Shown piece after piece: positions 1,261 through 63,262 of a DNA stretch of 64,000 nucleotides. The DNA is taken from positions 41,918,188 through 41,982,187 of the forward strand of contig OZ024872.1 of assembly GCA_964017185.1 (NCBI GenBank), given 5' to 3'. Each line of letters begins with the position of its first letter. Position 1 is the first letter of the stretch. The position numbers were made by a program, and so were the translations under genes. Source of the DNA: Rugalucina vietnamica (taxonomy: Eukaryota > Mollusca > Bivalvia > Lucinida > Lucinidae). The notes below the pieces were generated by a model. That model was not told the DNA's origin. It made no database searches and saw nothing but the letters and a program-made list of their open reading frames with translations.

Positions 1261-1407
1261 AAAGCTGCTATGTAAGTGTTTGCTTCGTCTTGGTTGAAAC
1301 CGTTCCACTCCCAAGGTTGATTATTTTTGTTTGCGGGCACGGGGATAGTAAGATGTGAACTCATCACTCTGAAGTTGGATTTACCACCGTCGTTCGTTAT
1401 ACCCATG
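1261..1407 (-). CDS. Gene A exon 11: reprolysin domain, Met-turn
   Basis: Acceptor tattccag, donor GTGAGT; phase 2 to 2, 147 nt. It starts MGITNDGGKSNFRVMSSHL and ends GFNQDEANTYIAAL. The Met-turn (RVMSS) is kept, the third zinc His is Asn, and the two framework cysteines seen in gene C are missing. Confidence 0.84.
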
Positions 1408-3986: not shown

Positions 3987-4018
<32 letters not shown>

Positions 4019-11611: not shown

Positions 11612-11656
<45 letters not shown>

Positions 11657-20408: not shown

Positions 20409-20592
20409 CTAAAATATGTATGACGGTGGTGGTGGCATATCGTCCATCCTGTCTTTAAAGACCACCTGCCATTCCATCCCATCGTTGTAGATTACTGCTT
20501 TCTCTCGATGCAGATCAAAATCATCGTAAATTGGGATTAATTTAGTGCTTGGTCCGTTCTTATAGTTGGTTCTGCAGCCGTCAGGTACCCAC
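20409..20592 (-). CDS. Gene B exon 4: Cys-rich terminal module, second half, stop codon
   Basis: Acceptor ttttttcacag, phase 2, TAG stop at 20411-20409. It reads WVPDGCRTNYKNGPSTKLIP, then DGMEWQVVFKDRMDD. The order of the aromatic and acidic positions follows FIPDGCDV...NTWNVKFKEC of gene C. Confidence 0.88.
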
Positions 20593-37638: not shown

Positions 37639-37644
37639 TTTATT
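37639..37644 (-). promoter_or_regulatory. Candidate poly(A) signal of gene C
   Basis: AATAAA on the minus strand about 360 bp past the stop codon. It is the first canonical hexamer I found. A variant signal closer to the stop is possible. Confidence 0.35.
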
Positions 37645-38000: not shown

Positions 38001-38208
38001 TCACAAAAATATCGGCAAACTGAGTCTGTATGGACACTCGCCAGATTCATAATCTGCACATTCTTTAAACTTTACGTTCCACGTGTTGTTTGCGTAGAAG
38101 ACCTGTCCGGTGACGTCAATATCGACGTTTACGTCGTCCTCGTATTTCTCGATGACGAGTACGGCTGGTCCTGGCTCGACCGTAACGTCACATCCGTCGG
38201 GTATAAAC
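38001..38208 (-). CDS. Gene C exon 16: Cys-rich terminal module, second half, stop codon
   Basis: Acceptor catttcag, phase 2, 68 codons then TGA at 38003-38001. It starts FIPDGCDVTVEPGPAVLVIE, has a tract of alternating Asp/Val, and ends YRLSLPIFL. The PDGC start matches WVPDGC of gene B. Confidence 0.88.
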
Positions 38209-41200
38209 CTGAAATGAAACGAAGGAACAAAAATAATGTCAGTGTATTCCATAATATAGGCAACTGAACCAAAACTTAACCAAATTCTAAACCCTGGATT
38301 ATCCTAACACAGGTAACTCTTATACCATGCAAAATAAAAAGAGTTGTTCCACTTTTTCTTCATAACACTGTTGATCAAAATGAAAAAAAGGAGGTTCAAT
38401 CATTAAAAAGTCATTGTTTTCCAAGGTACCTTACCGTTTCAGCCATCTAGCTATTAAACCCAGATGACCATTGTACCTGTAAATGCTTACATGTATCTCA
38501 GATTTGGCATTTATTCGAATACTATTTATTACACATCATAGTATACTTGCCCAAAGGTAATACCCATTTAACCAAAACAAAGAGACATTGTCTTACCTTG
38601 TTGAAACACGAATCTTTCCCGGGCAGCAATCAGGAGTTGCTGGGCAAATGTCATTTCTGAAGACCCCGGATGTGAGTAGGTCATAGACCGACAATCTTGT
38701 AGGATTGCAGTCACAGGGAGCATCACACGCACAGCCCCCACAGCAACCACACTCTAACAAAAGAAAAAAATCATTTCACCAACATGCACGTGGCAACTTC
38801 TGTCATTCGAAATCCACTTTCATTAAGTTTTGGGACATTCCAAAAATAAAATGGTATTCATCTTCTTAACTAGATATTCTCTCACCGATCCCATGCCGTT
38901 TGAAAATCACCAAACAATAATAGGCTACGCCTAATCCGAGTAGCAAATGATGTTTAAATCATTTATGTTTCTATGTTATGTTTGTAAAAATTCAGTCTGG
39001 TGTATGTCTGTAAATGTAAATGAAATGAAATTTCGGAATGAATGAAAACCATTGTTTATTAATCAACACAATTTCAATGAAAATTGTCTAGAATTTGAAC
39101 TTTTCTACACTCAAGAACCTCTGCTATGTGCTATTATGACACAAACCAGACTATGCTGCTGCCAAGGCTGGTAAAAACTCATGCTGTAAAAACATCACAT
39201 TGTTGAAAATGACGCTGCTCTTGGAAAGGGCTGAGCCGATGTACACGAATACCAACAACATGCTTAGGCTAAAACAAAGACGCAGATCAGCTGTGCAGTA
39301 ACTGCACAGCTGATCAGCGTCTTTGTTTTTGCTACGCAGACTTACAATCCCTTGTCTTATTAAATCCAAAATTCTAAGTTTCTAGCCTGCTTCTGTGATT
39401 GTACAGGCTGGTTTTTGTCAGACTTGGTTGGAGACCCAGATTGTTGCTTTTCTCTCGCAAAGGCTCACTGGTAATACGTACCCGGAGAATCAAATTCCAC
39501 ATAGCCAAAATCCTGTACGCATGAAGGTTGTGGCGTGCTCTGTATCAGCGTTGACGGTAATTCTGACGTCTGTGGCGCTATACTTGATGCATGCTGGCTA
39601 CTACTTATAGGCGCTTCCGACGTTTGAGGTTTTAGACTTGAAAAGACATTGGTAGATGGAGGCGTCGTACCAAGACTTGGCGAAACAGAAAGTTCCGTTG
39701 TAAAACTTTCTGTTGAACGGACTGTTACAGGAGGTTCTGTCGTGTCTGGTTTTCCAGAGCTTGGAAATTGTGATGATATTGGTAACTCCGTAGAGCTAGT
39801 AGTTTCAGTTGATGCCGACTCTGACGTCGAAGCAGTACTAGGTAATGGAGACGAGAATGGTAATTCACTCGACAACAATGCGGTTGACTTACTAGCCTCG
39901 CTTGATGTCGACTCTGACGTCGAAACACTACCGGATATTGGTGACGAGATTGGTATTTTACTCGATGGTAATGCGGTCGAGCTAGTAGCCCCAGTTATTG
40001 TCGACTCAGACGTCGATACGCTGCTGGGCAATGGTGAAGAGATCGGTAATTCACTCGACGGTAACTCGGTCGAGCTTGTGGCCGCAGCTGATGTCGACTC
40101 CGACGCTGGGGCGCTACTAGGCAATGGCGACGAGAATGGTAACTCACTTGACAGTAACTCAGTTGAGCTTATTGTCTCACTTGAGGGCTCTTTTGATGTA
40201 AATGGTATTTCACTTGTTGGTAATTCAGATGAGATGGTAAACTCACTAGATGGTACTTCTGATGTTACTTCAGTACTGGGCAGCGATGAAGATATTGGTA
40301 ATTCACTCGTAGGTATCTCGGTTGAAAACGTTACCTTGCTCGTGGGCAACGTGGATGTAAAGTTTCTACTAGGGAAAGGTGAAGATATTGGTAATTCACT
40401 TGTTGGTAATACAGATGACATTGTAAATTCACTTGACGGCAATTCAGACGTAATAACGCTACTTGGCAATGGTGAAGACATTGGTAACTCACTCGAGGGT
40501 ATCTCGGTTGAAAACGTTCCTTCGCTCGTGGGAGGAAACGGTGAAGATATTGGTAATTCACTTGTTGGTAATTCAGATGATACTGTAAATTCACTTGACG
40601 GCGATTCGGACGTAATAACGCTACTTGGCAATGGCGATGAGTCCGGTAGTTTACTTGTTGGCAATACAGATGAATCTGTAGTCGATTGCGAAGTTACAAC
40701 GCTGCTAGGCAATGGGGAAGAGCTTGGAATTCCACTTGACGGCACTTCAGATGATTCCGTAGTTTGACTTGTTGTCGATTCTGAAGTCACAACGCTGCTA
40801 GGCAATGGTGAAGAGCTTGGAATTCCACTTGACGGCACTTCAGATGATTCCGTAGTTTGACTTGATGTCGATTCTGAAGTTACAACGCTGCTTGGCAATG
40901 TTGAAGTACTTGGAATTCCACTCGTCGGCACTTCAGATGATTCCGTAATTTGACTTGATGTCGATTCTGAAGTCACAACGCTGCTAGGCAATGGTGAAGA
41001 GGTTGGAATTCCACTTGACGGCACTTCAGATGATTCCGTAGTTTGACTTGTTGTCGATTCGGAAGTCACAACGCTGCTAGGCAATGGCGAAGAGCTTGGA
41101 ATTCCACTCGTCGGCAATTCAGATGATTCAGTAGTTTGACTTGTTGTCGATTCTGAAGTCACAACGCTGCTTGGCAATGTAGAAGAGCTTGGAATTCCAC

Positions 41201-44200
41201 TCGACGGCACTTCAGATGATTCAGTAGTTTGACTTGTTGTCGATTCTGAAGTCACAACGCTGCTTGGCAATGGTGAAGAGCTTGGAATTCCACTAGTCGG
41301 CACTTCAGATGATTCCGTAGTTTGACTTGTAGGTTCTGAAGTTACAACGCTGCTTGGTACCGGTGACGTTTCTGTCGTTGTCGACTTTACTTCGCTGGTT
41401 GGTTGAGGAGAAGAAATTGGTATTTCACTTGACTGTGTAGTTTCTGTTGTTGGTAGTGAAAATCCCGGTTTTCCACTTGTCTTTGTAGTTTCTGAAGTTA
41501 CAGCGCTGCTTGGCAATGGCGAAGAGCTTGGAATTTCACTTGACGGCACTTCAGATGATTCTGTAGATAAACTTGTGGTCGATTCAGAAGTTACTACGCT
41601 GCTTGGCAGTGGTGAAGAGCTTGGAATTCCACTTGTCGGCACTTCAGATGATTTAATAGTTTCACTTGTTGTCGATTCTGAAGTTACAACGCTGCTAGGC
41701 AATGGCGAAGAGCTTGGAATTGCACTTGACGGCACTTCAGATGATTCAGTAGTTTGACTTGTTGTCGATTCTGAAGTCACAACGCTGCTTGGCAATGGCG
41801 AAGAGCTTGGAATTTCACTTGACGGCACTTCAGATGATTCTGTAGATACACTTGTGGTCGATTCAGAAGTTACTACGCTGCTTGGCAGTGGTGAAGAGCT
41901 TGGAATTCCACTTGTCGGCACTTCAGATGATTCAGTAGTTTGACTTGTTGTCGATTCTGAAGTTACAACGCTGCTAGGCAATGGCGAAGAGCTTGTAATT
42001 CCACTTGACGGCACTTCAGATGATTCAGTAGTTTGACTTGTTGTCGATTCTGAAGTTACAACGCTGCTTGACAATGGCGAAGAGCTTGGAATTCCACTTG
42101 ACGGCACTTCAGATGATTCAGTAGTTTGACTTGTTGTCGATTCTGAAGCCACAACGCTGCTTGGCAATGGTGAAGAGCTTGGAATTTCACTTGACGGCAC
42201 TTCAGATGATTCAGTAGTTTGACTTGTTGTCGATTCTGAAGTCACAACGCTGCTTGGCAATGGTGAAGAGCTTGGAATTTCACTTGACGGCACTTCAGAT
42301 GATTCATTAGTTTGACTTGTTGTCGATTCTGAAGTCACAGCGCTGCTTGGCAATGGTGAAGAGATTGGAATTCCACTTGACGGCACTTCAGATGTTTCCG
42401 TTGTTTGACTTGTTGAAGATTCTGAAGTTACAACGCTGCTTGGCAATGGTGAAGAGCTTGGAATTTCACTTGACGGCAGTTCAGATGATTCAGTAGTTTG
42501 ACTTGTTGTCGATTCTGAAGTCACAACGCTGCTTGGCAATGGTGAAGAGCTTGGAATTTCACTTGACGGCACTTCAGATGATTCCGTTGTTTGACTTGTT
42601 GAAGATTCTGAAGTCACAACGCTGCTTGGCAATGGTGAAGAGCTTGGAATTTCACTTGACGGCACTTCAGATGATTCAGTAGTTTGACTTGTTGTCGATT
42701 CTGAAGTCACAACGCTGCTTGGCAATGGTGAAGAGCTTGGAATTTCACTTGACGGCACTTCAGATGATTCAGTAGTTTGACTTGTTGTCGATTCTGAAGT
42801 CACAGCGCTGCTTGGCAATGGTGAAGAGATTGGAATTCCACTTGACGGCACTTCAGATGATTCCGTTGTTTGACTTGTTGTCGATTCTGAAGTCACAGCG
42901 CTGCTTGGCAATGGTGAAGAGATTGGAATTCCACTTGACGGCACTTCAGATGATTCAGTAGTTTGACTTGTTGAAGATTCTGAAGTTACAACGCTGCTTG
43001 GCAATGGTGAAGTGCTTGGAATTGCACTTGATGGCAATTCAGATGATTCAGTAGTTTGACTTGTTGAAGATTCTGAAGTTACAACGCTGCTTGGCAATGG
43101 TGAAGTGCTTGGTATTCCACTTGACGGCACTTCAGATGATTCAGTAGTTTGACTTGTTGTCGATTTTGAAGTTACAACGCTGCTAGGCAATGGTGAAGAG
43201 CTTGGAATTTCACTTGACGGCACTTCAGATGATTCCGTAGTTTGACTTGATGTTGATTCTGAAGTTACAACGCTGCTTGGCAATGGCGAAGAGATTGGAA
43301 TTCCACTCGACGGCACTTCAGATGATTCAGTAGTTTGACTTGATGTCGATTCTGAAGTTACAACGCTGCTTGGCAATGGTGAAGTGCTTGGAATTCCACT
43401 TGACGGCACTTCAGATGATTCCGTAGTTTGACTTGTTGTTGATTCTGAAGTTACAACGCTGCTTGGCAATGGTGAAGAGATTGGAATTCCACTCGACGGC
43501 ACTTCAGATGATTCAGTAGTTTGACTTGTTGTTGATTCTGAAGTTACAACGCTGCTTGGCAATGGTGAAGAGCTTGGAATTCCACTTGACGGCACTTCAG
43601 ATGATTCAGTAGTTTGACTTGTTGTCGATTCTGAAGTCACAACGCTGCTTGGCAATGGTGAAGAGCTTGGAATTTCACTTGACGGCACTTCAGATGATTC
43701 AGTAGTTTGACTTGTTGTCGATTCTGAAGTCACAACGCTGCTTGGCAATGGTGAAGAGCTTGGAATTCCACTTGACGACTCTTCAGATGATTCCGTAGTT
43801 TGACTTGTAGGTTCTGAAGTTACAACGCTGCTTGGTACCGGTGACGTTTCTGTCGTTGTCGACTGTACTTCGCTGGTTGGTTGAGGAGAAGAAATTGGTA
43901 TTTTACTTGACTGTGTAGTTTCTGTTGTTGGTAGTGAAAATCCCGGTTTTCCACTTGTCTTTGTAGTTTCTGAAGTTACAGCGCTGCTTGGCAATGGCGA
44001 AGAGCTTGGAATTCCACTTGACGGCACTTCAGATGATTCTGTAGATACACTTGTGGTCGATTCAGAAGTTACTACGCTGCTTGGCAATGGTGAAGAGCTT
44101 GGAATTCCACTTGTCGGCACTTCAGATGATTTAATAGTTTCACTTGTTGTCGATTCTGAAGTTACAACGCTGCTAGGCAATGGCGAAGAGCTTGGAATTG

Positions 44201-47200
44201 CACTTGACGGCACTTCAGATGATTCAGTAGTTTGGATTGTTGTCGATTCGGAAGTCACAACGCTGCTTGGCAATGGCGAAGAGCTTGGAATTCCACTTGA
44301 AGGCACTTCAGATGATTCAGTAGTTTGACTTGTTGTCGATTCTGAAGTCACAACGCTGCTTGGCAATGGTGAAGAGCTTGGAATTCCACTCGTCGGCACT
44401 TCAGATGATTCAGTAGTTTGACTTGTTGTCGATTCTGAAGTTACAACGCTGCTAGGCAATGACGAAGAGCTTGGAATTCCACTTGACGGCACTTCAGATG
44501 ATTCAGTAGTTTGACTTGTTGTCGATTCTGAAGTTACAACGCTGCTTGGCAATGGTGAAGAGCTTGGAATTTCACTTGAAGGCACTTCAGATGATTCCGT
44601 AGTTTGACTTGTAGGTTCTGAAGTTACAACGCTGCTTGGTACCGGTGACGTTTCTGTCGTTGTCGACTGTACTTCGCTGGTTGGTTGAGGAGAAGAAATT
44701 GGTATTTCACTTGACTGTGTAGTTTCTGTTGTTGGTAGTGAAAATCCCGGTTTTCCACTTGTCTTTGTAGTTTCTGAAGTTACAGCGCTGCTTGGCAATG
44801 GCGAAGAGCTTGGAAATTCACTTGACGGCACTTCAGATGATTCTGTAGATACCCTTGTGGTCAATTCAGAAGTCACAACGCTGCTAGGCAATGGTGAAGA
44901 GCTTGGAATTTCACTTGACGGCACTTCAGATGATTCAGTAGTTTGACTTGTTGTCGATTCTGAAGTCACAACGCTGCTTGGCAATGGCGAAGAGCTTGGA
45001 ATTCCACTCGACGGCACTTCAGATGATTCCGTAGTTCGACTTGTTGTCGATTCTGAAGTTACAACGCTGCTAGGCAATGGTGAAGAGCTTGGAATTCCAC
45101 TCGATGGCACTTCAGATGATTCAGTAGTTTGACTTGTTGTCGATTCTGAAGTTACAACGCTGCTAGGCAATGGTGAAGAGCTTGGAATTCCACTCGACGG
45201 CACTTCAGATGATTCAGTAGTTTGACTTGTTGTCGATTCTGAAGTTACAATGCTGCTAGGCAATGGCGAAGAGCTTGGAATTCCACTCGACGGCACTTCA
45301 GATGATTCAGTAGTTTGACTTGTTGTCGATTCGGAAGTCACAACGCTGCTTGGCAATGGCGAAGAGCTTGGAATTCCACTTGACGGCACTTCAGATGATT
45401 CAGTAGTATGACTTGTTGTCGATTCTGAGGTTACAACGCTGCTAGGCAATGGCGAAGAGCTTGGAATTCCACTTGACGGCACTTCAGATGATTCAGTAGT
45501 TTGACTTGTTGTCGATTCTGATGTCCTAGCACTGCTTGGCAATCGTGAAGAGCTTGGAATTCCACTTGATGGCACTTCAGATGATTCCGTAGTTTGACTT
45601 GATGTCGATTCAGAAGTCACAAGGCTGCTTGGCAATGGTGAAGAGCTTGGGATTCCACTTGATGGCAATTCAGATGATTCAGTAGTTTGACTTGTTGTCG
45701 ATTCTGAAGTTACAACGCTGCTTGGCAATGGTGAAGTGCTTGGACTTTCACTAGACGGCACTTCAGATGATTCAGTAGTTTGACTTGTTGTCGATTCTGA
45801 AGTCACAACGCTGCTAGGCAATGGTGAAGAGCCTGGAATGTCACTTGTCGGCACTTCAGATGATTCCGTAGTTTGAATTGTTGTCGATTCTGAAGTCACA
45901 ACGCTGCTTGGCAATGGCGAAGAGCTTGGAATTCCACTTGACGGCACTTTAGATGATTCAGTAGTTTGACTTGTGGGTTCTGAAGTTACAACGCTGCTTG
46001 GTAGCGTCGACGTTTCTGTCGTTGTTGACTGTACTTCGCTGGTTGGTTGAGGAGAAGAAATTGGTATTTCACTTGACTGTGTAGTTTCTGTTGTTGGCAG
46101 TGAAAATCCCGGTTTTCCACTTGTCTTTGTAGTTTCGGAAGTTACTACGCTGCTTGGCAGTGGTGAAGAGCTTGGAATTCCACTTGTCGGTACTTCAGAT
46201 GATTCAGTAGTTTGACTTGTTGTCGATTCTGAAGTTACAACGCTGCTAGGCAATGGCGAAGAGCTTGGAAGTCCACTTGTCGGCACTTCAGATGATTCAG
46301 TAGTTTGACTTGTTGTCGATTCTGAAGTTACAACGCTGCTAGGCAATGGCGAAGAGCTTGGAAGTCCACTAGACGGCACTTCAGATGATTCAGTAGTTTG
46401 ACTTGTTGTCGATTCTGAAGTTACAACGCTGCTAGGCAATGGCGAAGAGCTTGGAATTCCACTTGACGGCACTTCAGATGATTCAGTAGTTTGACTTGTT
46501 GTCGATTCTGAAGTCACAACGCTGCTGGGCAATGGTGAAGAGCTTGGAATTCCACTTGACGGCACTTCAGATGATTCAGTAGTTTGACTTGTTGTCGATT
46601 CTGAAGTTACAACGCTGCTAGGCAATGGCGAAGAGCTTGGAATTTCACTTGACGGCACTTCAGATGATTCAGTAGTTTGACTTGCTGTCGATTCTGAAGT
46701 CACAACGCTGCTAGGCAATGGTGAAGAGCTTGGAATTTCACTTGACGGCACTTCAGATGATTCAGTAGTTTGACTTGTTGTCGATTCTGAAGTCACAACG
46801 CTGCTAGGCAATGGTGAAGAGCTTGGAATTTCACTTGAAGGCACTTCAGATGATTCAGTAGTTTGACTTGTTGTCGATTCTGAAGTTACAACGCTGCTAG
46901 GCAATGGCGAAGAGCTTAGAATTCCACTTGACGGAACTTCAGATGATTCCGTAGTTTGACTTGATGTCGATTCTGAAGTCACAACGCTGCTAGGCAATGG
47001 CGAAGAGCTTGGATTTTCACTTGACGGCACTTCAGATGATTCAGTAGTTTGACTTGTTGTCGATTCTGAAGTCACACCGCTGCTAGGCAAAGGTGAAGAG
47101 CTTGGAGTTTCACTTGACGGCGCTTCAGATGACTCAGTCGTTTGACTTGTGGATTCTGAAGTTACAACGCTGCTAGGCAATGGTGACGAGCTTGTTATTG

Positions 47201-49986
47201 CACTTGATGGCACTTCAGATGATTCAGTAGTTTGACTTGTTGTCGATTCTGAAGTCACAACGCTGCTAGGCAATGGTGAAGAGCTTGGAGTTTCACTTGA
47301 CGGCGCTTCAGATGACTCAGTCGTTTGACTTGTGGATTCTGAAGTTACAACGCTGCTAGGCATTGGTGACGTGCTTGGTATTGCACTTGATGGCACTTCA
47401 GATGATTCAGTAGTTTGACTTGTTGTCGATTCTGAAGTCACAACGCTGCTTGGCAATGGTGACGAGCTTGGAATTCCACTTGACGGCACTTCAGATGATT
47501 CAGTAGTTTGACTTGTGGTCGATTCTGAAGTAATAATGCTGCTTGGTACTGGTGACGTTTCTGTCGTTGTTGACTGCTCTTCAATGGTTGTTTGAGGAGA
47601 AGAAATTGGTATTTCACTTGATTGTACAGTTTCTTCTGTTGTTGTTTCTGTTGTTGTGGTCTGTGCTTCACTGGTTGGTTGAGGAGAAGAAATTGGAATT
47701 TCACTTGACTGTACAGTTTCTTCTGTTGTTGTTTCTGTTGTTGTGGTCTGTGCTTCACTCGTTGGTTGTTGAGAAGAAATTGGTGTTTCACTTGACTGTG
47801 TAGTTTCTGTTGTTGGTTGTGGTGAAAATCCTGGTCCATTACTTGTCTTTGTAGTTTGTGTCGATGTTGTTTGCACTTCACTGGTTGGTTGATGTGAGGA
47901 TATTGGTATTTCACTTGACTGTGTAGTTTCTGTCGTCGTTTCTGTTGTCATAGTCTGTGCTTCACTGGTTGGTTGAGGAGAGGATTCTGGTATTTCACTT
48001 GACTGTGTAGTTTCTGTTGTGGTTTTTGTTGTTGTAGTCTGTGCTTCACTGCTTGGCTGAGGAGATGAGAATGGTATTTCACTTGACTGTGTAGTTTCTG
48101 TTGTGGTTTCTGTTGTTGTAGTCTGTGCTTCACTGCTTGGCTGAGGAGATGAGAACGGTATTTCACTTGACTGTGTAGTTTCTGTCGTGGTTTCTGTCGT
48201 TGTAGTCTGTGCATCACTGCTTGGCTGAGGAGATGAGAATGGTATTTCACTTGACTGTGTAGTTTCTGTCGTGGTTTCTGTCGTTGTAGTCTGCACTTCA
48301 CTGGTTGGCTGAGGAGATGAGAACGGTATTTCACTTGACTGTGTAGTTTCTGTCGTGGTTTCTGTCGTTGTAGTCTGTACTTCACTGGTTGGCTGAGGAG
48401 ATGAGAACGGTATTTCACTTGACTGTGTAGTTTCTGTCGTGGTTTCTGTCGTTGTAGTCTGCACTTCACTGGTTGGCTGAGGAGATGAGAACGGTATTTC
48501 ACTTGATTGTGTAGTTTCTGTCGTGGTTTCTGTCGTTGTAGTCTGTGCTTCACTGCTTGGCTGAGGAGATGAGAATGGTATTTCACTTGACTGTGTAGTT
48601 TTTGTCGTGGTTTCTGTCGTTGTAGTCTGTGCTTCACTGCTTGGCTGAGGAGATGAGAATGGTATTTCACTTGAAATTACTGGCAGTCCGCTTGTCTGAA
48701 CAACTGTAGGTACTCCACTGCTCGGTACAATTGAAGACATCGGTACTGCCGTTGAGGGAGGACTGCTAGGATCATCACACCTGATTACAATGTCAATACT
48801 GACGTCACCAAGGTCAATAGGTTCTAGTATAAAGGGCATAGTCACGGGCATGGTTGAAGCCAAGGGTGTGGTAGTTACAGTGCTACTGGAGGTGGTACTA
48901 CTGGAGGTGGTACTCGTGGTACCTGTAGTGGTACTCGTTGTTGAAGTGGAACTAGAAGTCGAAGTGGAAGTTGTGGTCGTTACTGTTGTATTAGGCACAA
49001 ACTCACCACAAACTCCAAATGTACATTGCTGAAATGGGAAAAAGATACCTTTCATAAATAAGCCTTTGCATGAGAAAACGAATAATTTGTGTAAAGCGAA
49101 ATGAAAGCGCTGACAAGTTGTGCAGGTACTGAACAGCTGATCTGCACCTTTTGGTTTCGCATGTGCAAAAATTGGTTTTCTCATGCCGTGTCTCAAATTT
49201 TATAATGAATAAAAATCAATTCTGCTGAGTTTCAAATGAAACCTTAACATTATTATTTATCATTATCATCAGTGGCTGTATGCTCTATTTGCAATAAAGT
49301 TTTTGCTGTGAGTGCGGAATCTTTTAAAATAATCATTTTAATTGAATATTTAGGTATCCTATGCATTCATCACAATACATATGTTACATTATATCAGGTT
49401 CAAATTGTAAAAATTTAACTGATTTATGGAAAATTCTAGTCTGCATTCAGTTGAGCGTTATGATATTTCATCATAAATAGATCATAAAACTGAATAAATC
49501 ATTAAAAATGAATAAACAGCAGAAATGAATAAGCAGTAAAAATGAATAAACCATGAAAATAAATAAATAAATCATAAATCGAATTAAAACGAATTAATCA
49601 TAAGATAAATAAATCATAAAAATGAATAAATCTAAAAAAAAGGATAAATTATGAAATCGAATAAATCATAGAAATGAATAAATCTAAAAAAATGAATAAA
49701 TCATAAAATTGAATGAATCTAAAATAATGAATAAATCATGAAATTGAATAAATTTCAAAAATGAATAACTGATCAAAAAATTGAATAAATCTAAAATAAT
49801 GAATAACTGATCAAAAAGGTGAATAAATCTAAAATAATGAATAGATCATAAAAATGAATAAACCTCAAAAATGAAGAAAAAAATGAATAAATCACAAAAT
49901 TGAATAAATCACAAAATTGAATAAATCATATAAATAAATAACTCTCAAAAATGAATAAAATGTAAAATTCAAAAAAAAAAAAAAAA

Positions 49987-50022
<36 letters not shown>

Positions 50023-53000: not shown

Positions 53001-53072
53001 TTGTCTTTCTTCTTCTTCTTCTTCTTCTGCTTCTTCTTGTGTTGTTGTTGTTGTTCTTCTTCTTCTTCTTCA

Positions 53073-53133
<61 letters not shown>

Positions 53134-56100
53134 GTTGTTGGTGGTGGTGTTGGTGGTGTTGGTGGTGTTACAATGGTCATTGTGTTGTTTTATTATCATT
53201 ACTATTATTTATCTTTATTTTTATTTATTTATTTATTTATTTTTTTTTTGTATTATCAACGCCACTAATGATAACTAAGCATATGAAAGAATAAATATCT
53301 TCAAATCATTAAAACTAAAATGCCAATACATTCTAGTCAAAAATATGGGTTTAATGAACATCATACATACGACAAGGCTAGCACTTGAGCTATATATCTC
53401 GGCAAATTTCCATCCATTGTAATAATAGACGAAGACAGTGTGCTGCTTGAGGTGCATATAGGTGTACCAAGCAAGTCTGAATAACAGAACAGAACATGTC
53501 TTTTTATTAAAATGTCAAGTCGTCATTTACATTGACATGAGAGTAATAAAATACACAAAATAATAAACACTATTTAAGCTGAGGGCATATTCAATCCTGA
53601 TTCAGAATTTAATTATGACTTGGCAACCATCTTGAAAAATGGCCGTCAACTTAGAATGCCTAACGGTTAACATTAGTATTTGTGCCAAGTTCCATGCTTG
53701 TATCGCAAAATGTACAATTCTCATACGAAAACAGGGATTAATCTGCCCAGCCATATATTATGTGAAGTTGATGATACAATTTGCTTATTGCTTGGCATAC
53801 TTGACGGCAGAAGAGTTTCTGCTCCAAAGTGGTTTTATTGTGTATACACTGCCAAATAATGATAAAGATCATTATTACAAAACTCCTATTATACGTCAAT
53901 ATATACAGAGGAATATTCAAAGACTTCCTTGGATAATTATTTGGGTTTAAAGCTGTAGATTATACAAACCATCTTGGATACCATATTGAATTTCTAAAAA
54001 TAGAAAAAATGGTCAATAAGGGTTGCAAATTAAGGTATTAGTAACGAATGGACTCATCCGTCTATGAGTCTACCGCGTCACATCTGGGGCTATTCTGTTT
54101 GCCTATGCCCCCAAAATAGGACATCAGAGTTCATATTAGACTGATGCAAAAATGAATACATGGTAAAAGTAACTTACAATTAACGCTGCTTCCCTTGTAT
54201 ACCAGCGGCAATCTGAAATTGTCAAAATTAATGGGACTCTATCAAAGTAGTCACAGCATACTGAGCACATGTTCTAATTGCATAATATATATATCGTTAT
54301 ATGTTTTATGTGCTCAAGTGCCTAATGGCCTATTGCATGAATAAATTACTCTAAAATCTGAAACAGTGAAACGTAATAACATTTTATGAATTAAATTGAA
54401 ACACTCCAAAGCAGAAATGAAAGACAAAGCAGAAATGAAAAAAAGAGCCGCCACATGGGAAAACTAACACTCTGCAAAGGCGGAAACAAAGGCGCAGATC
54501 AGCTTCGCAGTAACTGCGAAGCTGATCAGCGCCTTTGTTTTCGCTACACGGACAATACAATTGCTCTACTTTTTTAATCCAAATATTTCCAGCCTCTAAC
54601 CATCTTCTGTGACTGTACAGCCCGGTTTGTATCAGACCTGGTCGTAACCCAAATTATTGGTTTTTCTCATTCACAGGCTCAAATAAATTTGAAAGGTTGT
54701 CGGGAATATTTGGCTTAAGAGAGCTTCTTTTTTCGTAATGAATACCTACTTTGTTAGCGCTATGGTATGGTCTGGCACAGGAAAATTCAGATATGAAATG
54801 AGGAAGTTTGCTAGTGCTGTTACATCCGTTAAAGCCTTGTTGGCTATTAGGGTCCCGTTATCCCTGTTTTTATTCTTGGTCCAGCTTGATTGGAATTTAT
54901 TCTGAAAATAATACAAGTCCATTTCATTTAAAAATTTCGTTTGAAAATTTCATCAAGACTGGTTTGTGTGTCTAATAAATGCTTCCGCTAAATCTAATTT
55001 AACATATACTCCTCCTCAAAACAATTCGGTCACCCAAAGTCGTTCCCATTCTGTATATATTGTTATAAACTTGTTTGGTGTGCTCATACCCTTTCCTATC
55101 CTATTCCCAACCCAAAACTTTGATAAAGTGCTTCTACGTCCTATTAACATCTTTTGTCATATGGAGATAGAGCATGCTGAAAATGTTATCCGAAGGGCTG
55201 TAGGAGCCCTGGATCAAAACAACGACCCCTGAATCAAAAAAAAAAAAAAAAAAAAAAAAGCGGCGAGAAGCTTTACTATTAGACACCACAGAGGCTTCTA
55301 CACTGTATATGTATCCTGTGGAAGCTAGCATGCGTTAGTCGCTAGAATGGAGTGACCTTTCAGATTCCTCACCCTTTTGTACCCTATAACTACCATATAA
55401 CATCTACTTTTTTAAACCGAGCATGCGCAATAGACATACGCTGCATGCGAAATGACTGTTTATACACTCGATTTTGTCAAGTGTTTCAAATTTACTAGCA
55501 ATAGAACACAATTTTCGTTTATTTGTTGGGTGGTTGCAACACAACTGGGTGACCGGATTTTTTTGAGGAGGAGTATATTTATAGCATTAAAGGTTTGTTG
55601 GAAGCTAAAGGAGTATTGTGAATAGCGAGTGTTCGCAATAAAAACAGTGAGGTAGTAGTGAGAAACGTATATTCTATTAACGACTGTTGACATGCCAAAT
55701 GCCTGGATAAATCACACATCTCCCGCAATTGAGAACTGCCTGAGGACAAAAAAATGGGTCAAAGCTTAAAATGCAATCTTTACATACTCGAAACACCCAT
55801 ACAGAAATGGACTCAGATTACCCGAACTAGAATGTCGGACTCCAGAAAATAATCGAACTATGGGCTAAAGTAACTGTATCCCCGTAGATATGACAAAAAA
55901 CGGAAGAAAAAAAAAAACAACATTCGGTAAGGAAAAAGAACCGTCCATCGGAGGGGGGGGGGTCGATTCCGTTTTGTAATACCGCTAATATTTTTTACAT
56001 CGAAAGCCAGTCTGTCAAACCACAACAAAGGCTTGAAATATTGTCTATGTCAAAACCGAAGTAGATCAGAAGCTTAAAGATTAATGTCAAATCCTGTGCC

Positions 56101-59100
56101 ATGAGAAGAGAGATAGCTGAGACAAACGAAAATTGAGTTGTGGCTTAGCGTCCCAGTCAACAGCTATGGTCATGTCAGGACGTTGTCTCCATTTTATGGG
56201 ACTTCTACCCAACACTAAGATGTCATGACACCCAAACTGTGCTTTAGAAATTTATTACCCAATGAAATTGCTTGACTTTAGTCATTTTTCTTGGGCAGGC
56301 TCAGACTTGAGCGGTTAACCAGTCAGTCAGTCACCCATACACTTTGCCTAGACTCACCAGTAGCCCATCTATTGTGGCCCTGAGAGAAAATGGTGGGTGT
56401 ACTTTCTTAGAGAAAATGGTGGGTGTACTTTCTTAATAAATAAACTGACACTGCATGAATAGAGCCGCCCCATGGGAAAACCAACAATCTGCATAGGCGA
56501 AAACAAAGGCGCTGATCAGCTTCGCGGTTACATCAGCGCCTTTGTTTTCGCTACACGGATAGTACAATCCCTCCTCTAAATTTCAATCTTCTAGCCTGCT
56601 TCTGTGCTTGTACAGGCCGGTTTGTGTCGGACCTGTTCGGAAACCACATTGTTGGCTTTCCCACGAGGCGGCTCAATTATAGTAAGATGTCCTACCCGAC
56701 GCTCTGTATATCATGGTAACTTACTATGAGATTAAATGGGCGAAAAAAATCATGTAAAGTGTATACCATATTTTAAGTAAACAGTGTTTTTAAAACCAAG
56801 TAGCGCTTACCATGGCAATCTGTGTATTAAGCAAGTAAAGTCGGATATTAAGGGAGCTGTAGGTCTCCATGTACTCGAACATCGTGTCTGTCTGAAAGAA
56901 AAGTGATACTCATTAATACGCATAGAAGAGAATTGGTTGGTTGATTTCGTGTTTTACGCGCGCAGCTGTGTCATTTGGAATCGGGTTTTGGTTTAAAGTC
57001 TCATCCGAAAGACCGGTGAGATCCAAGATCGAATTTACGACCACTGGTTTTCAAGGCGAACGGTGTTTTGCGCGAATCAACTTTCTTATGCATATACTTA
57101 AAACTGACAAAAGCAGGCAAAGCTTTTCTTCCATTTGTCCGATTTTCTGTTTACTGGTTCGTTTTCACTCCTACACTCATTAAAGGCAAAATTGTTGATT
57201 TTTTTATGCGAAGGCTCACATGTTTGTTTGTTTGTTTGTTTGTTTGTTTGTTTGTTTGTTTGTTTGTTTGTTTGTATTGATGTTTAACGTCCCAGTCAAC
57301 ATTTTTTCAGTCATGTCGGGACAACGCCATCGCTTCCTGGGTTTTAACCAGTACTATAGGGAGTTAATGTGTCTTGCTCAAGGACAAAAGGCTCATATGT
57401 GAATCACATACCTCACGTGTGAGCGACTCTAAATAATTTTGAATATAGTTTGAGACGTCACTCGCTGGAGAATCTGACAACGCTGGGAGATTGTTGTAAC
57501 TGAAATAGAGATCAACCATACAGGTTTTAATGATTTTAAACTGCAAAGATAAATAAATAAATACTTTGAGTGGTGCGTCCCAGTAAACAACAATGTCCAT
57601 GTCTGGACGTTACCTCCATTTTGGGACCTCCATCCAACATTAGGATGCCACGACGCCTAAAATGTGTTTGAAAAAGAAAATCACCCAAGTAAACCAAAAA
57701 GGCTTATTTGCGTGTATGTTTTGACTTGAACCACTTTTCCTGGGCAGGCTCAGACCCTCTAAACGGTTAGCCAGTTATATATTAGATTGTCAGTAATTCA
57801 TAAGCTTTGCCTGGAGGCACATTCAGCCCATCTATTTCTCAGGGTCCCAATGGGCGGGGGCCCAGTGCATTTGTTCGCTTAACTTATTTGATCATTCTAA
57901 GCAAGACCGCAAGAAACTGGTATATATGTGAAATGACATGCAGAGTTTTAGAATTAAAGGGATCAATAGGGAAAATGTTATTGTGAGTCTCTGTAATTGG
58001 CATAATTTGTTTACAAGGTGAACGCATTTGTCGTTCAATTACCATACACTCCGCGGACCAAAAAGGCAGAAAACAACCATACATGTGACCAAACACTGCA
58101 ACTAAAAGTTTCCATCCTAATTGGACTTACAATTGAAAAGTAGAAAAGTCTGTCATAATAAATAGTTCTATCACATTGTCAAGTTTTGTAGCTTCGCTGC
58201 TTTCTTGTCGTTTTCTTCTGTGGTGAATATCTGTTCAAAAGGTATAAGGCAAAAATAAATTAATGCATGTCAATGTAATTACAATATATACAGTCAGACA
58301 TAAGTTAAGCATCACCCAAATATTATTCTTGAAACGGTTTTGAGATAACAACAATTATTCTTTGAAGGCATTTTACCAGTGTCTTTTCTAGATCTGCTTG
58401 ACCTGTCAGAATGACATTTGCCCCAATCGCTTAGATTCTATGGGGGCATTTATACATTTACCCCTTTTGGGGGGTATGTCCTTAGTAATTGTATATAATT
58501 CATTAATAGATATTCAATTTGACTTTGTATGAGCTCGAAAAGAGTTAAAATATAGAAAAGTTCCAAGAGGCTTTTTGATAGACTCAGTGGTTTATGTAAG
58601 TTACAGGAATAGCCATCCAAACTTATTCGCTTGTTATTTAAGCATTACGTTTTCACTTTGTAACATACGATTCATGAACCTTTCATAATGTAACGGGATA
58701 GTCTCCCTTGTAGAATACGTTGGTGCAACGTAAAAGCGGCATATTAGCGGGTAGTAATATGCAAATTAGAAACTCGAAACTTTGTGATTAGAGTAAGTGT
58801 TAGGTATATAGCGCAGTAAACCACCCTTGGTGGATGAGCATGCTTTTCCACCGACGGGGTTTGCTGTGGCTCGGCTCGGCTGTACGTTACATTTGGTGGC
58901 AGCGGTGGGATAATGACAACTGCCAGACCGGGGTTGCCTTACCCATGTAGTCCCCAGGCCAAGACTCGGGGCGAGTCTTCTCGGAGGGGGAAGTAATGTA
59001 ACGGGATAGTCTCCCTTGTAGAATACGTTGGTGCAACGTAAAAGCGGCATATTAGCGGGTAGTAATATGCAAATTAGAAACTCGAAACTTTGTGATTAGA

Positions 59101-62100: not shown

Positions 62101-63262
62101 CAAATCAAAGACTTACTTTTGATATTCTGTTCGCTCGGTATGAGGAGGTGGGTAGCGGGGGGTAGGAGAAATTCATGGATGTTGTTGTTGTTGGAAGTTG
62201 GTATCACTTCTGGTATAATATCGTAGGTTTCATCGTCAATCGTATGGCGTCCATACTGAAACAGTAACTTAACAATAAAAACTAGTGCAGAAAAAAAGCA
62301 AAATATGCCCCTGCTCTTATTTGTCTGTTAAAACGAAGAATTCTTTAAAACTGAATTTGATTGAAAATGATTCCGTTTATTTCACAGCTTCTTTAAGTAG
62401 GTTATTATGAAATTCAAGATGGCATCCAGGATGGCTGCAAAAACACAAGATTTATTCTAAAGAGAGTCAAGAAACGCGAACTCCACATATGTGCGTCCGT
62501 TTCAAACTATTGAATCAACGTGCACGCTAAATGTTTATTCTAGAAGATGACCCTGACTGGCAGCATATAATTTTCTTGCAACTAATGATCAAAATACAGC
62601 GACTTCTCATGTAATACAGAGAATAACAAAGTGGCTTACCATAAAGTGTAATATTGTGTCATTTTGATGTTTCGTGTGCAATACAAATTTTGTTTCGGGG
62701 CTGTGGTAAAAGCCAAAATTCTGAAACAATGATATAATAGCAGCATTAGGATTATATGACCAAGGCAAACTGGCTTTTTAAACCTTTAGCACTTATATTA
62801 TTTAGGGGAAAATAAGTAATAATGCGCGATTAAGATTACACATATAATTGTAACGATGCATTGAAAAAGCGACAATTCCAAAATAACATAAACTAGAATC
62901 ATTTGTGGTGTTTTAATGTAACTTGCTAACGTAAGCATATCTATAAAATCTTCATTAATAGTAAACATGTAAATGTAACAGAAATATAGTTAACATCATG
63001 ACAGGCAGACAGCACAATGAAAAGGATGAAGGTCTTACATGTCTATTTTCCTCGGTGAAAACATCGGATGGTAAAAATGGGACAGCTTCAAAGAATGATT
63101 CACTAAGGAGGCTAGTGGCAAATTCATCATATGTAACATTGGTAAAGAAACAAGAAGGAGCATCTGAATCGTAAGTCCGTTCAAACTGGGCCGTCAGCTC
63201 GGTGGGGAACCCGTTGTGGTAGCTACCAAACAGGTCGTTTCCTGATCTTATAAATATGGAAA
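38001..63262 (-). CDS. Gene C: secreted ADAM/ADAMTS-like pseudoprotease fused to a giant mucin domain (5' partial)
   Basis: Fifteen exons are visible, each with AG/GT borders and compatible phase: 63039-63262, 62640-62720, 62117-62255, 58131-58230, 57412-57499, 56811-56891, 54750-54901, 54178-54212, 53371-53476, 52791-52943, 51700-51835, 50086-50193, 39482-49028, 38597-38753, 38001-38208. Together they encode about 3,770 residues. A signal-peptide exon is expected above 63262 and is not seen before the window ends. Domain order: propeptide, RRKR site, reprolysin-type domain opening with VIELFIMTDFSTF, ADAMTS-type Cys-rich segment, Ser/Thr/Pro repeats, Cys-rich terminal module. The zinc motif is destroyed, so proteolysis is not expected. 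No thrombospondin type 1 repeat is visible. The exons share phases and sequence with gene A, and the last part matches gene B. The family call is from motifs; the matrix or mucus role is inference. Confidence 0.85.
38597..38753 (-). CDS. Gene C exon 15: Cys-rich terminal module, first half
   Basis: Acceptor tttgttag, donor GTAAGA; phase 1 to 2, 157 nt. It starts ECGCCGGCACDAPCDCNPTR and ends TPDCCPGKIRVST. The same skeleton (CGCCGGC...CC.G..RV.[ST]) is in gene B exon 3 with the same phases. I cannot assign it to a named family. Confidence 0.88.
39232..39467. mobile_element. M1 MITE copy 17, beside the mucin exon donor
   Basis: Ends 14 bp past the 3' border of the giant exon. The in-frame stop reached without splicing (39465) lies inside this MITE. 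Confidence 0.83.
39482..49028 (-). CDS. Gene C exon 14: 9.5 kb mucin-like Ser/Thr/Pro repeat exon
   Basis: A single open exon of 9,547 nt. Acceptor ccatttcag precedes QCTFGVCGEFVPN, which closes the Cys-rich domain. Then come about 13 repeats of 28 residues (SSEIPFSSPQP, then acidic Thr-rich) at 47560-48680. Next are roughly 65-70 repeats of 31 residues (TESSEVPSSGIPSSSPLPSS, then VVTSESTTSQT) at 40690-47560, and finally degenerate SSELPISSPLPSS-type repeats. I see no Cys between the N-terminal CGEF and the final SCVQDFGYVEFDSPG. The exon is assigned to end at donor GTACGT (39481-39476) because gene B has the same VEFxxPG|intron junction. Without splicing the frame would stop at 39465. Dense O-glycosylation is expected from composition. 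Confidence 0.92.
40690..47560 (-). repeat. 93-bp coding minisatellite of the mucin exon
   Basis: Roughly 65-70 units of 93 bp (31 codons), highly similar at DNA level. A longer cassette containing TSGKPGFSLPTTETTQSS recurs four times (near 41340-41500, 43820-43980, 44620-44790, 45980-46140), giving a higher-order arrangement. Confidence 0.92.
47560..48680 (-). repeat. 84-bp coding minisatellite of the mucin exon
   Basis: About 13 units of 28 residues (SSEIPFSSPQPSSEAQ followed by Thr/Glu). The last few units are length variants with TTTEETVQ. Confidence 0.9.
49060..49195. mobile_element. M1 MITE copy 18 (degenerate), beside the mucin exon acceptor
   Basis: AGCCTTTGCATGAGAAAAC start and GGTTTTCTCATGCCGTGTCTC end, core decayed. 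It begins about 30 bp upstream of the giant exon. Confidence 0.7.
49490..50070. repeat. AT-rich minisatellite plus poly(A)
   Basis: Irregular ATAAATCATAAAAATGA-type units of about 17-20 bp, with a 48-nt A-rich run at 49973-50020. Ends at the donor side of gene C exon 13. Confidence 0.85.
50086..50193 (-). CDS. Gene C exon 13: end of Cys-rich segment
   Basis: Acceptor tctgtttcag, donor GTAAGT; phase 0 to 0, 36 codons. TSAVDCQGLDCYDENTDSC and FNTTCNATEGL continue the 'CxxLxC......C......GTxC' series. A 600 bp AT-rich minisatellite abuts its 3' side. Confidence 0.87.
50270..50350. mobile_element. M4 element, short
   Basis: AAATTGTGGGTTCATGTTAAG and CGCCTCGCCTAGGCG hairpin with a poly(T) on one side. 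Confidence 0.5.
50565..50870. mobile_element. M4 element, fullest copy
   Basis: CATCAGGAAAACATGTCCG leader, TATACCCC/GGGGTATAC arms, then ATAGATTGTGGGTA arms around TTAGAACCGCCTCGC with its complement, and TTTTCGTAACG tail. Gene C intron between exons 12 and 13. Confidence 0.68.
51445..51660. mobile_element. M3 element copy 3 (inverted)
   Basis: AATAGCCCCAGATGGGACGC hairpin and ACCCAAATGATAATGATGGG tail, 40 bp from gene C exon 12. A partial copy is at 54040-54130. Confidence 0.65.
51700..51835 (-). CDS. Gene C exon 12: ADAMTS-type disintegrin-like/Cys-rich segment
   Basis: Acceptor acgcttcag, donor GTAAGT; phase 2 to 0, 136 nt. It reads LENNCLTVFDEFF...PTMGERYSVEDQC then QNVFGRTSSKC. This fits the ADAMTS pattern 'CLxD...lpGxxYxxxxQCxxxFGxxsxxC' and is the best evidence for an ADAMTS-like rather than classic ADAM origin. 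Confidence 0.88.
51868..52107. mobile_element. M1 MITE copy 19
   Basis: Core has a 4-nt insertion at the centre (GGTAACAACCGC). Lies 32 bp upstream of the gene C exon 12 acceptor. Confidence 0.82.
52337..52665. mobile_element. M6 element with (TTTG)n head
   Basis: TTTACGTCCCAGTCAACAGC start, then GGTCATGTC, TGCCTCCATTTTATGGGAC, GGGCAGGCTCAGAC and TTGCCTGGAGGCACA blocks. Related copies at 56135-56410, 57275-57400 and 57560-57870; a short piece at 21570-21645 is similar. Perhaps SINE-like; no A/B box seen. Confidence 0.6.
52791..52943 (-). CDS. Gene C exon 11: reprolysin domain, Met-turn and CS motif
   Basis: Acceptor attattttcag, donor GTAGGT; phase 2 to 2, 153 nt. It reads LGADYDTNTACDNSAQYIMS, then PYEYSLCSRESMREYIKG. 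The Met-turn (YIMS) and the xSxCS...xxI motif of ADAM/ADAMTS domains are kept. The third zinc His (GxxHD) is Tyr (GADYD). Confidence 0.9.
52978..53250. repeat. Compound microsatellite (TTC)n(TTG)n(ATT)n(GGT)n
   Basis: About 270 bp of changing trinucleotide motifs and TTTA repeats in the intron between gene C exons 10 and 11. It produces several meaningless homopolymer frames. Confidence 0.93.
53371..53476 (-). CDS. Gene C exon 10: reprolysin domain with degenerate zinc-site helix
   Basis: Acceptor tattcag, donor GTATGT; phase 1 to 2, 106 nt. LLGTPICTSSSTLSSSII fits the 'GxAyvgxiCsxxxs' strand. It ends RYIAQVLALS, where active ADAMs have an xxAHELGHNLG-type helix. The first zinc His is Gln (53385-53387), the catalytic Glu is Val and the second His is Leu. 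Confidence 0.88.
54178..54212 (-). CDS. Gene C exon 9: 35-nt micro-exon
   Basis: Acceptor caatttcag, donor GTAAGT; phase 2 to 1, encoding about 11 residues (LPLVYKGSSVN). The other two frames either contain a stop or break phase with the neighbours. The 44-nt gene A exon at 3835-3878 occupies the same place with the same phases, which is the main support for so short an exon. Confidence 0.78.
54445..54681. mobile_element. M1 MITE copy 20
   Basis: Perfect GCAGTAACTGC core. Gene C, between exons 8 and 9. Confidence 0.83.
54750..54901 (-). CDS. Gene C exon 8: reprolysin domain, LxxFxxYL...DHTIALT segment
   Basis: Acceptor attattttcag, donor GTAGGT; phase 0 to 2, 152 nt. It ends ALANFLISYLNFPVPDHTIA then LT. 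This matches gene A exon 8 (ALADFTTYLQ...VYDHAVGLT) and the common reprolysin pattern 'LxxFxxyxxxxxxxxDhaxLlTg'. Confidence 0.87.
56135..56410. mobile_element. M6 element copy 2
   Basis: TTAGCGTCCCAGTCAACAGC start; the last block GAGAAAATGGTGGGTGTAC is duplicated. Confidence 0.58.
56462..56675. mobile_element. M1 MITE copy 21
   Basis: Half of the palindrome deleted (GCGGTTACATCAGCGCC). Gene C, between exons 7 and 8. Confidence 0.8.
56811..56891 (-). CDS. Gene C exon 7: reprolysin domain, NIRLYLLNTQI strand
   Basis: Acceptor tttctttcag, donor GTAAGC; phase 0 to 0, 27 codons. TDTMFEYMETYSSLNIRLYL corresponds to the helix plus strand of reprolysins that usually reads 'nxvnxiyxxlxIrvxLvgleiw'. 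Confidence 0.88.
57221..57400. mobile_element. (TTTG)n tract plus truncated M6
   Basis: About 54 bp of TTTG repeats followed by TTTAACGTCCCAGTCAAC and a decayed body. The microsatellite sits at the same M6 end as in 52337-52665. Confidence 0.6.
57412..57499 (-). CDS. Gene C exon 6: reprolysin domain
   Basis: Acceptor ctatttcag, donor GTATGT; phase 2 to 0, 88 nt. It reads YNNLPALSDSPASDVSNY then IQNYLESLTRE. Gene A exon 6 ends LIPFYQALARD at the same intron position. Confidence 0.85.
57560..57870. mobile_element. M6 element copy 3
   Basis: GTGCGTCCCAGTAAACAAC start to GGGCGGGGGCCCAGTGC end, about 310 bp, the longest copy here. Confidence 0.58.
58131..58230 (-). CDS. Gene C exon 5: furin-type site and first strand of the reprolysin domain
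   Basis: Acceptor ttttgaacag, donor GTAAGT; phase 1 to 2, 100 nt. It encodes IHHRRKRQESSEATKL and then DNVIELFIMTDFSTFQ. RRKR is a consensus proprotein-convertase site. The segment after it is the usual opening strand of ADAM/ADAMTS catalytic domains (xxVELxIVxDxxxF). Gene A exon 5 (DNIIELLIWGAGDFW) has identical phases. Confidence 0.88.
58291..61344. mobile_element. 3-kb TIR element in gene C intron 4
   Basis: Ends CAGTCAGACATAAGTTAAGC and complement (26 bp, one mismatch), flanked by TA on both sides, so Tc1/mariner-like. It contains the TRIM insertion at 58689. No transposase signature seen in the rest. Frames at 59573-59779 and 60320-60556 (minus) are unrecognised. Confidence 0.65.
58689..59199 (+). 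mobile_element. TRIM: terminal-repeat retrotransposon in miniature, intact
   Basis: Two 203-bp direct repeats (58689-58891 and 58997-59199) appear identical on reading, start TGTAACGGGA and end ACGTTACA. A primer-binding site TGGTGGCAGCGGTGGGAT (58894-58911) is complementary to the 3' end of tRNA-Leu including CCA. A purine-rich tract GGAGGGGGAAG precedes the second repeat. ATAA flanks both sides (4-bp duplication). The 105-bp interior cannot code. Confidence 0.88.
62117..62255 (-). CDS. Gene C exon 4: end of propeptide
   Basis: Acceptor ctgtttcag, donor GTAAGT; phase 0 to 1, 139 nt. It starts YGRHTIDDETYDIIPEV and contains a run of four Asn. The start matches YGAMNRNGEKFYIAPDE of gene A exon 4. 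Confidence 0.85.
62640..62720 (-). CDS. Gene C exon 3: propeptide, NFGFYHSPETKFVLH segment
   Basis: Acceptor gtttcag and donor GTAAGC; phase 0 to 0, 27 codons. NFGFYHSPETKFVLHTKH matches DFSFYHNGEE...FVLHKPETDN of gene A exon 3. This match first showed that the two loci are paralogues. Confidence 0.85.
63039..63262 (-). CDS. Gene C exon 2: propeptide, first part
   Basis: Acceptor cttttcag at 63263-63270 and donor GTAAGA at 63038-63033; phase 1 in, phase 0 out, 224 nt. It reads SIFIRSGNDLFGSYHNGF, later SESFFEAVPFLPSD and ends TEENRH. It aligns with gene A exon 2, which ends LPDDLMTDENEQ in the same phase. An N-glycosylation sequon (NVT) is present. An M1 MITE lies only 14 bp upstream of the acceptor. 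Confidence 0.85.

Follow-up and report, generated by a model that had tools for sequence, protein, structure and literature searches.

Organization of the locus

The window analyzed here is a 64,000-nucleotide stretch of the genome of the lucinid bivalve Rugalucina vietnamica (C4:41918188-41982187 of a 1.09-Gb assembly in 47 contigs), and it carries on its minus strand a giant gene (gene 1), a short neighbor (gene 2), and part of a paralog (gene 3). The 15 in-window exons of gene 1 were rebuilt from the raw sequence from position 63262 down to 38001, with GT–AG borders throughout and matching phases, and encode 3,770 residues with no internal stop before a TGA at 38001; the fifteen phase-compatible exons of an earlier sequence-only reading were thus re-derived. 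Exon 1 enters in phase 1 without an ATG, and the start codon is placed in a signal-peptide exon, MKNVVGYISLILFLSGCSQADQPILT, at 64117-64039 on the window scale, 39-117 bp past the window edge, which ends in a phase 1 donor. Within the 19.7 kb scanned upstream of gene 1, this exon was the sole candidate to pass a filter combining an ATG, a hydrophobicity above 2, and a GTRAG donor in phase 1. Over 320 kb of strand, the filter passes 7 candidates, or 0.022 per kb, among which the signal exons of genes 2 and 3 may be counted, and a chance signal exon so near gene 1 is therefore unlikely. With this sixteenth exon, the complete gene encodes 3,797 aa (388 kDa before glycosylation, pI 4.05). After the signal, the protein has no transmembrane-like stretch, its most hydrophobic 19-mer averaging 1.3, and RGD is absent from it.

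The propeptide is encoded by exons 1 (63039-63262, phase 1 in and 0 out), 2 (62640-62720), and 3 (62117-62255), the first supported by a match to a protein of the bivalve Mya arenaria across the exon 1|2 junction, and the other two by counterparts in gene 3. Exon 4 (58131-58230) holds a furin-type site, RRKR|Q, ahead of the reprolysin-like domain, which starts with DNVIELFIMTDFSTFQ and continues through exons 5 (57412-57499), 6 (56811-56891), and 7 (54750-54901), followed by the 35-bp exon 8 (54178-54212). All five have gene 3 counterparts, that of exon 7 found by tblastn of the raw window (E 6e-4) and that of exon 8 sharing phases 2/1, and exon 6 has a counterpart in gene 4 as well. Exon 9 (53371-53476), placed by comparison with genes 3 and 4, encodes the first part of a dead active site (IAQVLAL), and exon 10 (52791-52943), 74.5% identical in gene 4, encodes its second part (LGADYD) and a retained Met-turn, YIMS. 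Exons 11 (51700-51835; disintegrin-like/ADAMTS_CR_2 start) and 12 (50086-50193; ADAMTS_CR_2 middle) are supported by Pfam and by gene 3. The 9,547-bp exon 13 (39482-49028) carries, in order, the end of the Cys-rich domain (QCTFGVCGEF), an IDLGDVSIDI block, Ser/Thr/Pro repeats, and the first residues of a tail module (PSCVQDFGYVEFDSP), which is continued by exon 14 (38597-38753; ECGCCGGC...CCPGKIRVST) and completed by exon 15 (38001-38208), where the stop lies and which also matches the Mya protein. The first AATAAA after the stop, a possible polyadenylation signal, is at 37639-37644. As judged from these exons and from Pfam, the domain order claimed earlier (propeptide, furin-type site, degenerate reprolysin domain, Cys-rich segment, mucin, Cys-rich end) holds.

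Other features of the surroundings include abundant short palindromic repeats (26 matches in the window to the core AAAACAAAGGCGCAGATCAGCTTCGCGGT and its mirror, often paired), MITE-like by appearance and without a match in viral or in bacterial/archaeal contigs, and a tandem array at 28250-29972 with a 324-bp unit in 5.4 copies (92% matches). Beyond the left edge of the window, at a distance of about 16.9-19.6 kb on the minus strand, a 905-aa open reading frame (ORF) looks like the reverse transcriptase of a retroelement, with a GIY-YIG-like segment at its C terminus, and we take it to be Penelope-like.

The inactivated protease head

HMM searches of the joined protein place Reprolysin above its cut-off (E 3.9e-5, 24.2 bits vs. 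20.8; head residues 323-393, profile positions 130-197 of 200) and ADAMTS_CR_2 just under its own (E 9.1e-6, profile positions 2-68 of 69, 26.4 bits, 0.9 below the cut-off of 27.3). Where HExxHxxGxxHD, the zinc motif, would be expected, genes 1 and 4 both read QVLALSLGADYD, in which all three His and the Glu are lost while the glycine and the final Asp are kept, and the degenerate, noncatalytic reprolysin domain proposed earlier is thus substantiated by the replacement of every zinc ligand and of the catalytic Glu. The reported absence of thrombospondin repeats also stands, as no TSP_1 match was found in the head or tail at E ≤10 (HMMER filters drop most matches above ~0.1) or in the mucin ORF at E ≤1. 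No EGF-like domain was matched in Pfam by the head or tail. The only PDB sequence matches of the head are three ADAMTS13 chains, over the Cys-rich segment (best E 0.61), and none of 3,398 protein-database candidates of 0.55-1.75 times the query length, a range shutting out single-exon predictions, reached E ≤0.001. A Reprolysin search of the home genome gave seven matches, gene 1 not among them.

Genes 1 and 4 were compared over 197 codons at 70% amino acid identity; the codons come from six stretches free of gaps, in exons 6 and 9-12 and at the beginning of exon 13, with exons 5 and 7 excluded. The dN/dS ratio ranges from 0.11 (NG86, LWL85) to 0.14 (YN00), with a raw pN/pS of 0.26 and a dS of 1.5-1.9, which is near saturation. 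Because the two genes have an identical dead motif and so low a dN/dS, the head is taken to be a maintained pseudoprotease, purifying selection being shown over these codons despite the dead active site. The simplest reading is that the loss of catalysis predates the split of genes 1 and 4 and that the fold would have been held since.

The dead site of gene 1 resembles that of the inactive mammalian ADAM32 (QMLALSLGISYD), and that of gene 3, where the zinc motif is also lost (QAIAFSMGITND), resembles that of ADAM2 (QLLSLSMGITYD), as the active-site replacements are tabulated in Table 2 of PMC11266112. Since the Cys-rich segment is ADAMTS-type, the likeness is read as probable convergence. It may point to a recurrent way to lose the zinc site.

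The mucin exon

The Ser/Thr/Pro domain of gene 1 comprises 3,156 residues, mostly 31-aa repeats with the unit consensus ESSEVPSSGIPSSSPLPSSVVTSESTTSQTT, and the repeat anchor is spaced by exactly 31 aa in 54 of 63 cases. Serine and threonine make up 52% of the domain, proline 12.6%, acidic residues 10.7%, and basic residues 1.0%. Differences from the consensus fall on codon positions 1, 2, and 3 in the numbers 45, 45, and 131, with a dN/dS-like ratio of 0.26, and the other five frames of the exon are interrupted by 80-333 stops. Exon 13 therefore behaves as coding, with in-frame constraint in its repeat array, and the giant Ser/Thr/Pro domain of about 3,150 residues put forward earlier is confirmed by codon-position bias, by this ratio, and by the frame stops. 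A 379-aa ORF antisense to the exon (39628-40767, plus strand) probably arises as a side effect of the repeats.

The tail module and gene 2

The tail of gene 1, 136 residues with 14 Cys, has no match in Pfam and only two chance-level matches in PDB (E 0.44 and 1.4), and a PDB profile search with the second half of the module returned none. More specifically, the CGCCGGC module has no sequence match to any Pfam mucin assembly domain. The novelty claimed for the Cys-rich end is upheld in that no credible Pfam or PDB match exists; the module is not peculiar to gene 1, as the neighboring gene 2 encodes it alone.

Gene 2 lies between genes 1 and 3 and has four exons on the minus strand, encoding 202 residues that consist of a signal peptide and the module. 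Exon 1 (25961-26057) encodes the signal peptide MRSLMLKYAHACVTMVTIFVCCCQCHDAADMF; exon 2 (25151-25243; GCAQETGVVEFRLP) matches the 3′ end of the gene 1 mucin exon and has the same donor phase, 1; exon 3 (20822-21056; GCGCCGGCGC...CCTGTVRVTS) encodes the Cys-rich module with phases 1/2, as in gene 1 exon 14; and exon 4 (20409-20592) ends the module with a TAG stop. The product matches the gene 1 tail at E 9e-11, the intron phases agree with those of gene 1 exons 13-15, and the mature part of the product has 12 Cys by a by-eye count, the two extra Cys of the gene 1 tail lying near the end of that tail. Relatives of the module were found in P0002 (E 4.6e-13) and, by profile, in P0003 (4.3e-6), which is the Mya arenaria protein, P0004 (3.0e-4), and, weakly, P0005 (0.055), none of the four having a credible Pfam match; on another public contig, P0004 includes an exon similar to gene 1 exon 14. 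Used as a query against the home genome, the gene 1 tail gave three matches and gene 2 gave four, each set confined to its own gene. Because these searches missed each other's gene, further copies of the module in this genome are possible.

Paralogous loci

Gene 3, a paralogous pseudo-ADAMTS gene at 1261-11782 on the minus strand with further exons left of the window, was assembled by tblastn and hand-set exons. The latter lie at 11782-11677 (signal), 11020-10809, 9558-9463 (counterpart of gene 1 exon 2), 9153-9054 (exon 3), 8330-8258 (exon 4), 7957-7879, 5910-5839, 5046-4904, 3878-3835 (exon 8), 2462-2351, and 1407-1261. Unguided tblastn recovered the counterparts of exons 1 (E 9e-5) and 11 (left flank, E 7e-8) in addition to that of exon 7. 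The products of genes 3 and 1 are 25.8% identical over 500 aa, with a score of 121 bits where the highest among 500 shuffles reached 27.7. Their junction phases agree in 13 of 13 cases, including the Cys-rich-to-Ser/Thr junction, an agreement that is not blind because the exon borders of gene 3 were set by hand with gene 1 in view. At the position of the furin site, gene 3 reads HRIRRS. It has no Reprolysin match in Pfam, and its ADAMTS_CR_2 match falls 6.9 bits below the Pfam cut-off. Within a few residues of the last CR_2 Cys, and in the same exon, the sequence turns to Ser/Thr. After one more likely intron, the gene would end about 10 kb left of the window with a TTSS-type Ser/Thr array of ~125 residues, open in the phase demanded by the proposed donor and acceptor, and a stop. 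No tail module was found in the 20 kb of left flank that were read.

Gene 4, a close paralog on the plus strand at about 8,624,700-8,635,800 of contig C3, was located there except for exons 1-4 and 8. Its exon 13 opens with TCSFGVCGEFVPNTTVTT and encodes 106 residues before a stop, including the IDLGDVSIDI block and one SSPLPSSV...SSELP stretch that resembles a single gene 1 repeat; this tail may hold a single seed of the 31-aa repeat. About 19 kb read downstream contain no tail module. Since the flanks of genes 3 and 4 showed no module, the complete domain order occurs only in gene 1 among the copies seen. The simplest account of the gene 1 mucin is that a short Ser/Thr/Pro linker, still present in gene 4, may have been enlarged by repeat duplication, and the short linker of gene 4 beside the expanded one of gene 1 provides a natural series along which the birth of a mucin domain might be traced.

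Other relatives are also present. L007 (C2:40437518-40437877) is a single-ORF, 561-aa reprolysin gene with an intact HELGHSLGADHD motif and a Cys-rich segment, in whose ORF no thrombospondin repeat was found, and it matches gene 1 locally at E 0.007 over a region including SLGADxD. Exon-10-like matches occur on C14 (SLGSSHDGED) and C10 (SLGADHDGED), from copies that may be active or dead, exon 9 being found at neither site.

Integrity of gene 1

Since the head is split by many introns and the mucin sits in one giant exon, it is tempting to divide the locus into two neighboring genes: the first, a pseudo-ADAMTS, would stop around exon 12, and the second, encoding the mucin, would begin within exon 13 or ahead of it. 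It should be noted, however, that the ADAMTS_CR_2 match crosses the exon 11|12|13 junctions, its last two Cys (QCTFGVC) lying in the mucin exon itself, and that the same junction and the same onset of Ser/Thr recur in genes 3 and 4. Moreover, the sole named homolog found, Mya arenaria LOC128207488 (P0003, 272 aa), a database gene model that may be incomplete, joins a gene 1-type propeptide directly to the tail module, and comparison with molluscs has thus yielded a bivalve protein carrying both ends. By two-sequence E-values, P0003 matches the propeptide across the exon 1|2 junction at 23 of 40 residues (E 2e-12) and the module at 47 of 115 (E 2e-29). As a query on the entire home genome, P0003 yielded four matches, three of which are gene 1 exons 15, 14, and 1 (E 0.27, 0.30, and 0.65); none is significant singly, and the weight lies in three of the four falling in one gene. 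The fourth, on C1 (E 0.11), was rejected on inspection as a chance match. A structure prediction for P0003 from five sequences was unusable (mean pLDDT 42). On this comparative evidence the division was rejected, and we regard it as very improbable; the sequence-only reading had named two separate genes as the finding that would overturn it, an objection now largely answered by the CR_2 span, genes 3 and 4, and Mya, and not by cDNA.

The lost zinc motif could also suggest a decaying pseudogene, the reprolysin site having gone as the gene dies. Against this, gene 1 has 16 exons without an internal stop, a dN/dS of 0.11-0.14 relative to gene 4 with an identical dead motif, in-frame constraint in the repeat array, and an exon 14 with a similar exon in P0004 on another public contig. 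Decay was likewise rejected and is, if anything, the hardest of all to credit. Gene 1 is read here as probably one transcription unit of 16 exons, whose predicted product comprises a signal peptide, a propeptide, a pseudoprotease, a Cys-rich segment, an acidic mucin, and a tail.

Proposed function and significance

Given the furin-type site, the noncatalytic head, the long acidic rod, and the disulfide-rich tail, the likeliest role of the gene 1 product would be as an acidic secreted mucin that binds through its head. Furin would remove the propeptide in the secretory pathway, and the head may then bind, but not cleave, a partner protein or matrix component. Judging by its composition, the mucin domain would carry O-glycans and form an extended rod, hydrated and negatively charged, which the tail could anchor or cross-link, with the free-standing tail protein encoded by gene 2 as a possible partner. 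Such a molecule could serve as a structural secreted mucin of mucus, the glycocalyx, or the extrapallial/shell matrix. The gel-forming or matrix role suggested in the sequence-only reading thus keeps the standing of an inference that the reading gave it. We hold it moderately probable that gene 1 encodes one secreted protein in which a propeptide, a pseudoprotease, a Cys-rich segment, a mucin, and a 14-Cys tail follow one another and which acts in this structural way.

Two other roles have to be weighed. A dead metalloprotease may be adhesive, as in the sperm ADAMs (fertilin-like), and gene 1 would then encode a gamete or egg-coat recognition protein with the mucin as coat or acrosomal stalk; the resemblance of its dead site to that of ADAM32, and of gene 3's to that of ADAM2, would fit, both ADAMs being treated under sperm maturation in PMC11266112. 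Nevertheless, the family signal is the ADAMTS-type CR_2, no transmembrane-like segment accompanies it, and the motif likeness may come from convergence, which makes this role unlikely, if worth keeping in view. Alternatively, the head might be a decoy or inhibitor that competes with active ADAMTS-like enzymes for substrate, the mucin and tail merely holding it. Such a relative exists in the same genome, as L007 keeps its motif intact and matches gene 1 locally, and pseudopeptidases often act by binding according to PMC11266112; yet nothing indicates shared substrates, and a mucin of 3,156 residues is far beyond the needs of a tether, so the probability of a decoy is low. The structural mucin remains the preferred reading.

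Extending it, one may speculate that bivalves evolved their own giant assembling mucins from an inactivated ADAMTS serving as recognition head, a 31-aa-repeat rod expanded from a linker, and a cross-linking 12-Cys CGCCGGC tail, with gene 2 as a soluble partner, a proposal that is tentative and rather doubtful at present. What the locus offers in any case is an ADAMTS-type protease domain in a secreted protein, which selection has preserved beyond the loss of the active site and which is joined to a giant mucin, together with an unnamed Cys-rich module that is common to another bivalve and is also encoded alone next to gene 1. Genes 1-4 and the Mya protein form a starting set for studying how molluscs might assemble polymers of mucus or matrix without recourse to von Willebrand-type domains such as those of vertebrate mucins. 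The architecture was not found in open-licence PMC papers by title or the start of the abstract and may still be published elsewhere.

Comparison with known systems

Gene 1 shares with ADAMTS proteases a propeptide, a furin-type site, a reprolysin-like domain with a Met-turn, and a segment that matches ADAMTS_CR_2 just under the Pfam cut-off. Unlike them, it lacks the zinc motif, no thrombospondin repeat was found in it, and a mucin and a new module replace the ancillary domains; an ADAMTS is defined by at least one thrombospondin type 1 repeat in PMC549037. The gel-forming mucins of the MUC2/MUC5AC type likewise have a giant Ser/Thr/Pro repeat domain between Cys-rich ends, but no von Willebrand D, CysD, or cystine-knot domain was matched in Pfam by the head, tail, or mucin ORF of gene 1. 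Mya arenaria LOC128207488 has the same propeptide type and C-terminal module in one chain, whereas its database model is devoid of a protease domain and a mucin.

ADAMTSL proteins are secreted, noncatalytic relatives of ADAMTS that lack the propeptide and protease domain and keep the thrombospondin repeats. Gene 1 shows the opposite arrangement, having a propeptide and a protease-like domain with no thrombospondin repeat found. The inactive ADAMs, ADAM2, ADAM32, and others, resemble it very closely in how the active site is replaced, as listed in Table 2 of PMC11266112; these are transmembrane proteins, whereas the gene 1 product looks secreted and combines an ADAMTS-type Cys-rich segment with a mucin. 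With no zinc motif or thrombospondin repeat found as in ADAMTS, no VWD, CysD, or cystine-knot domain as in gel-forming mucins, and no membrane anchor as in ADAMs, gene 1 is best described as a mucin that has a pseudo-ADAMTS head and carries an unnamed module.
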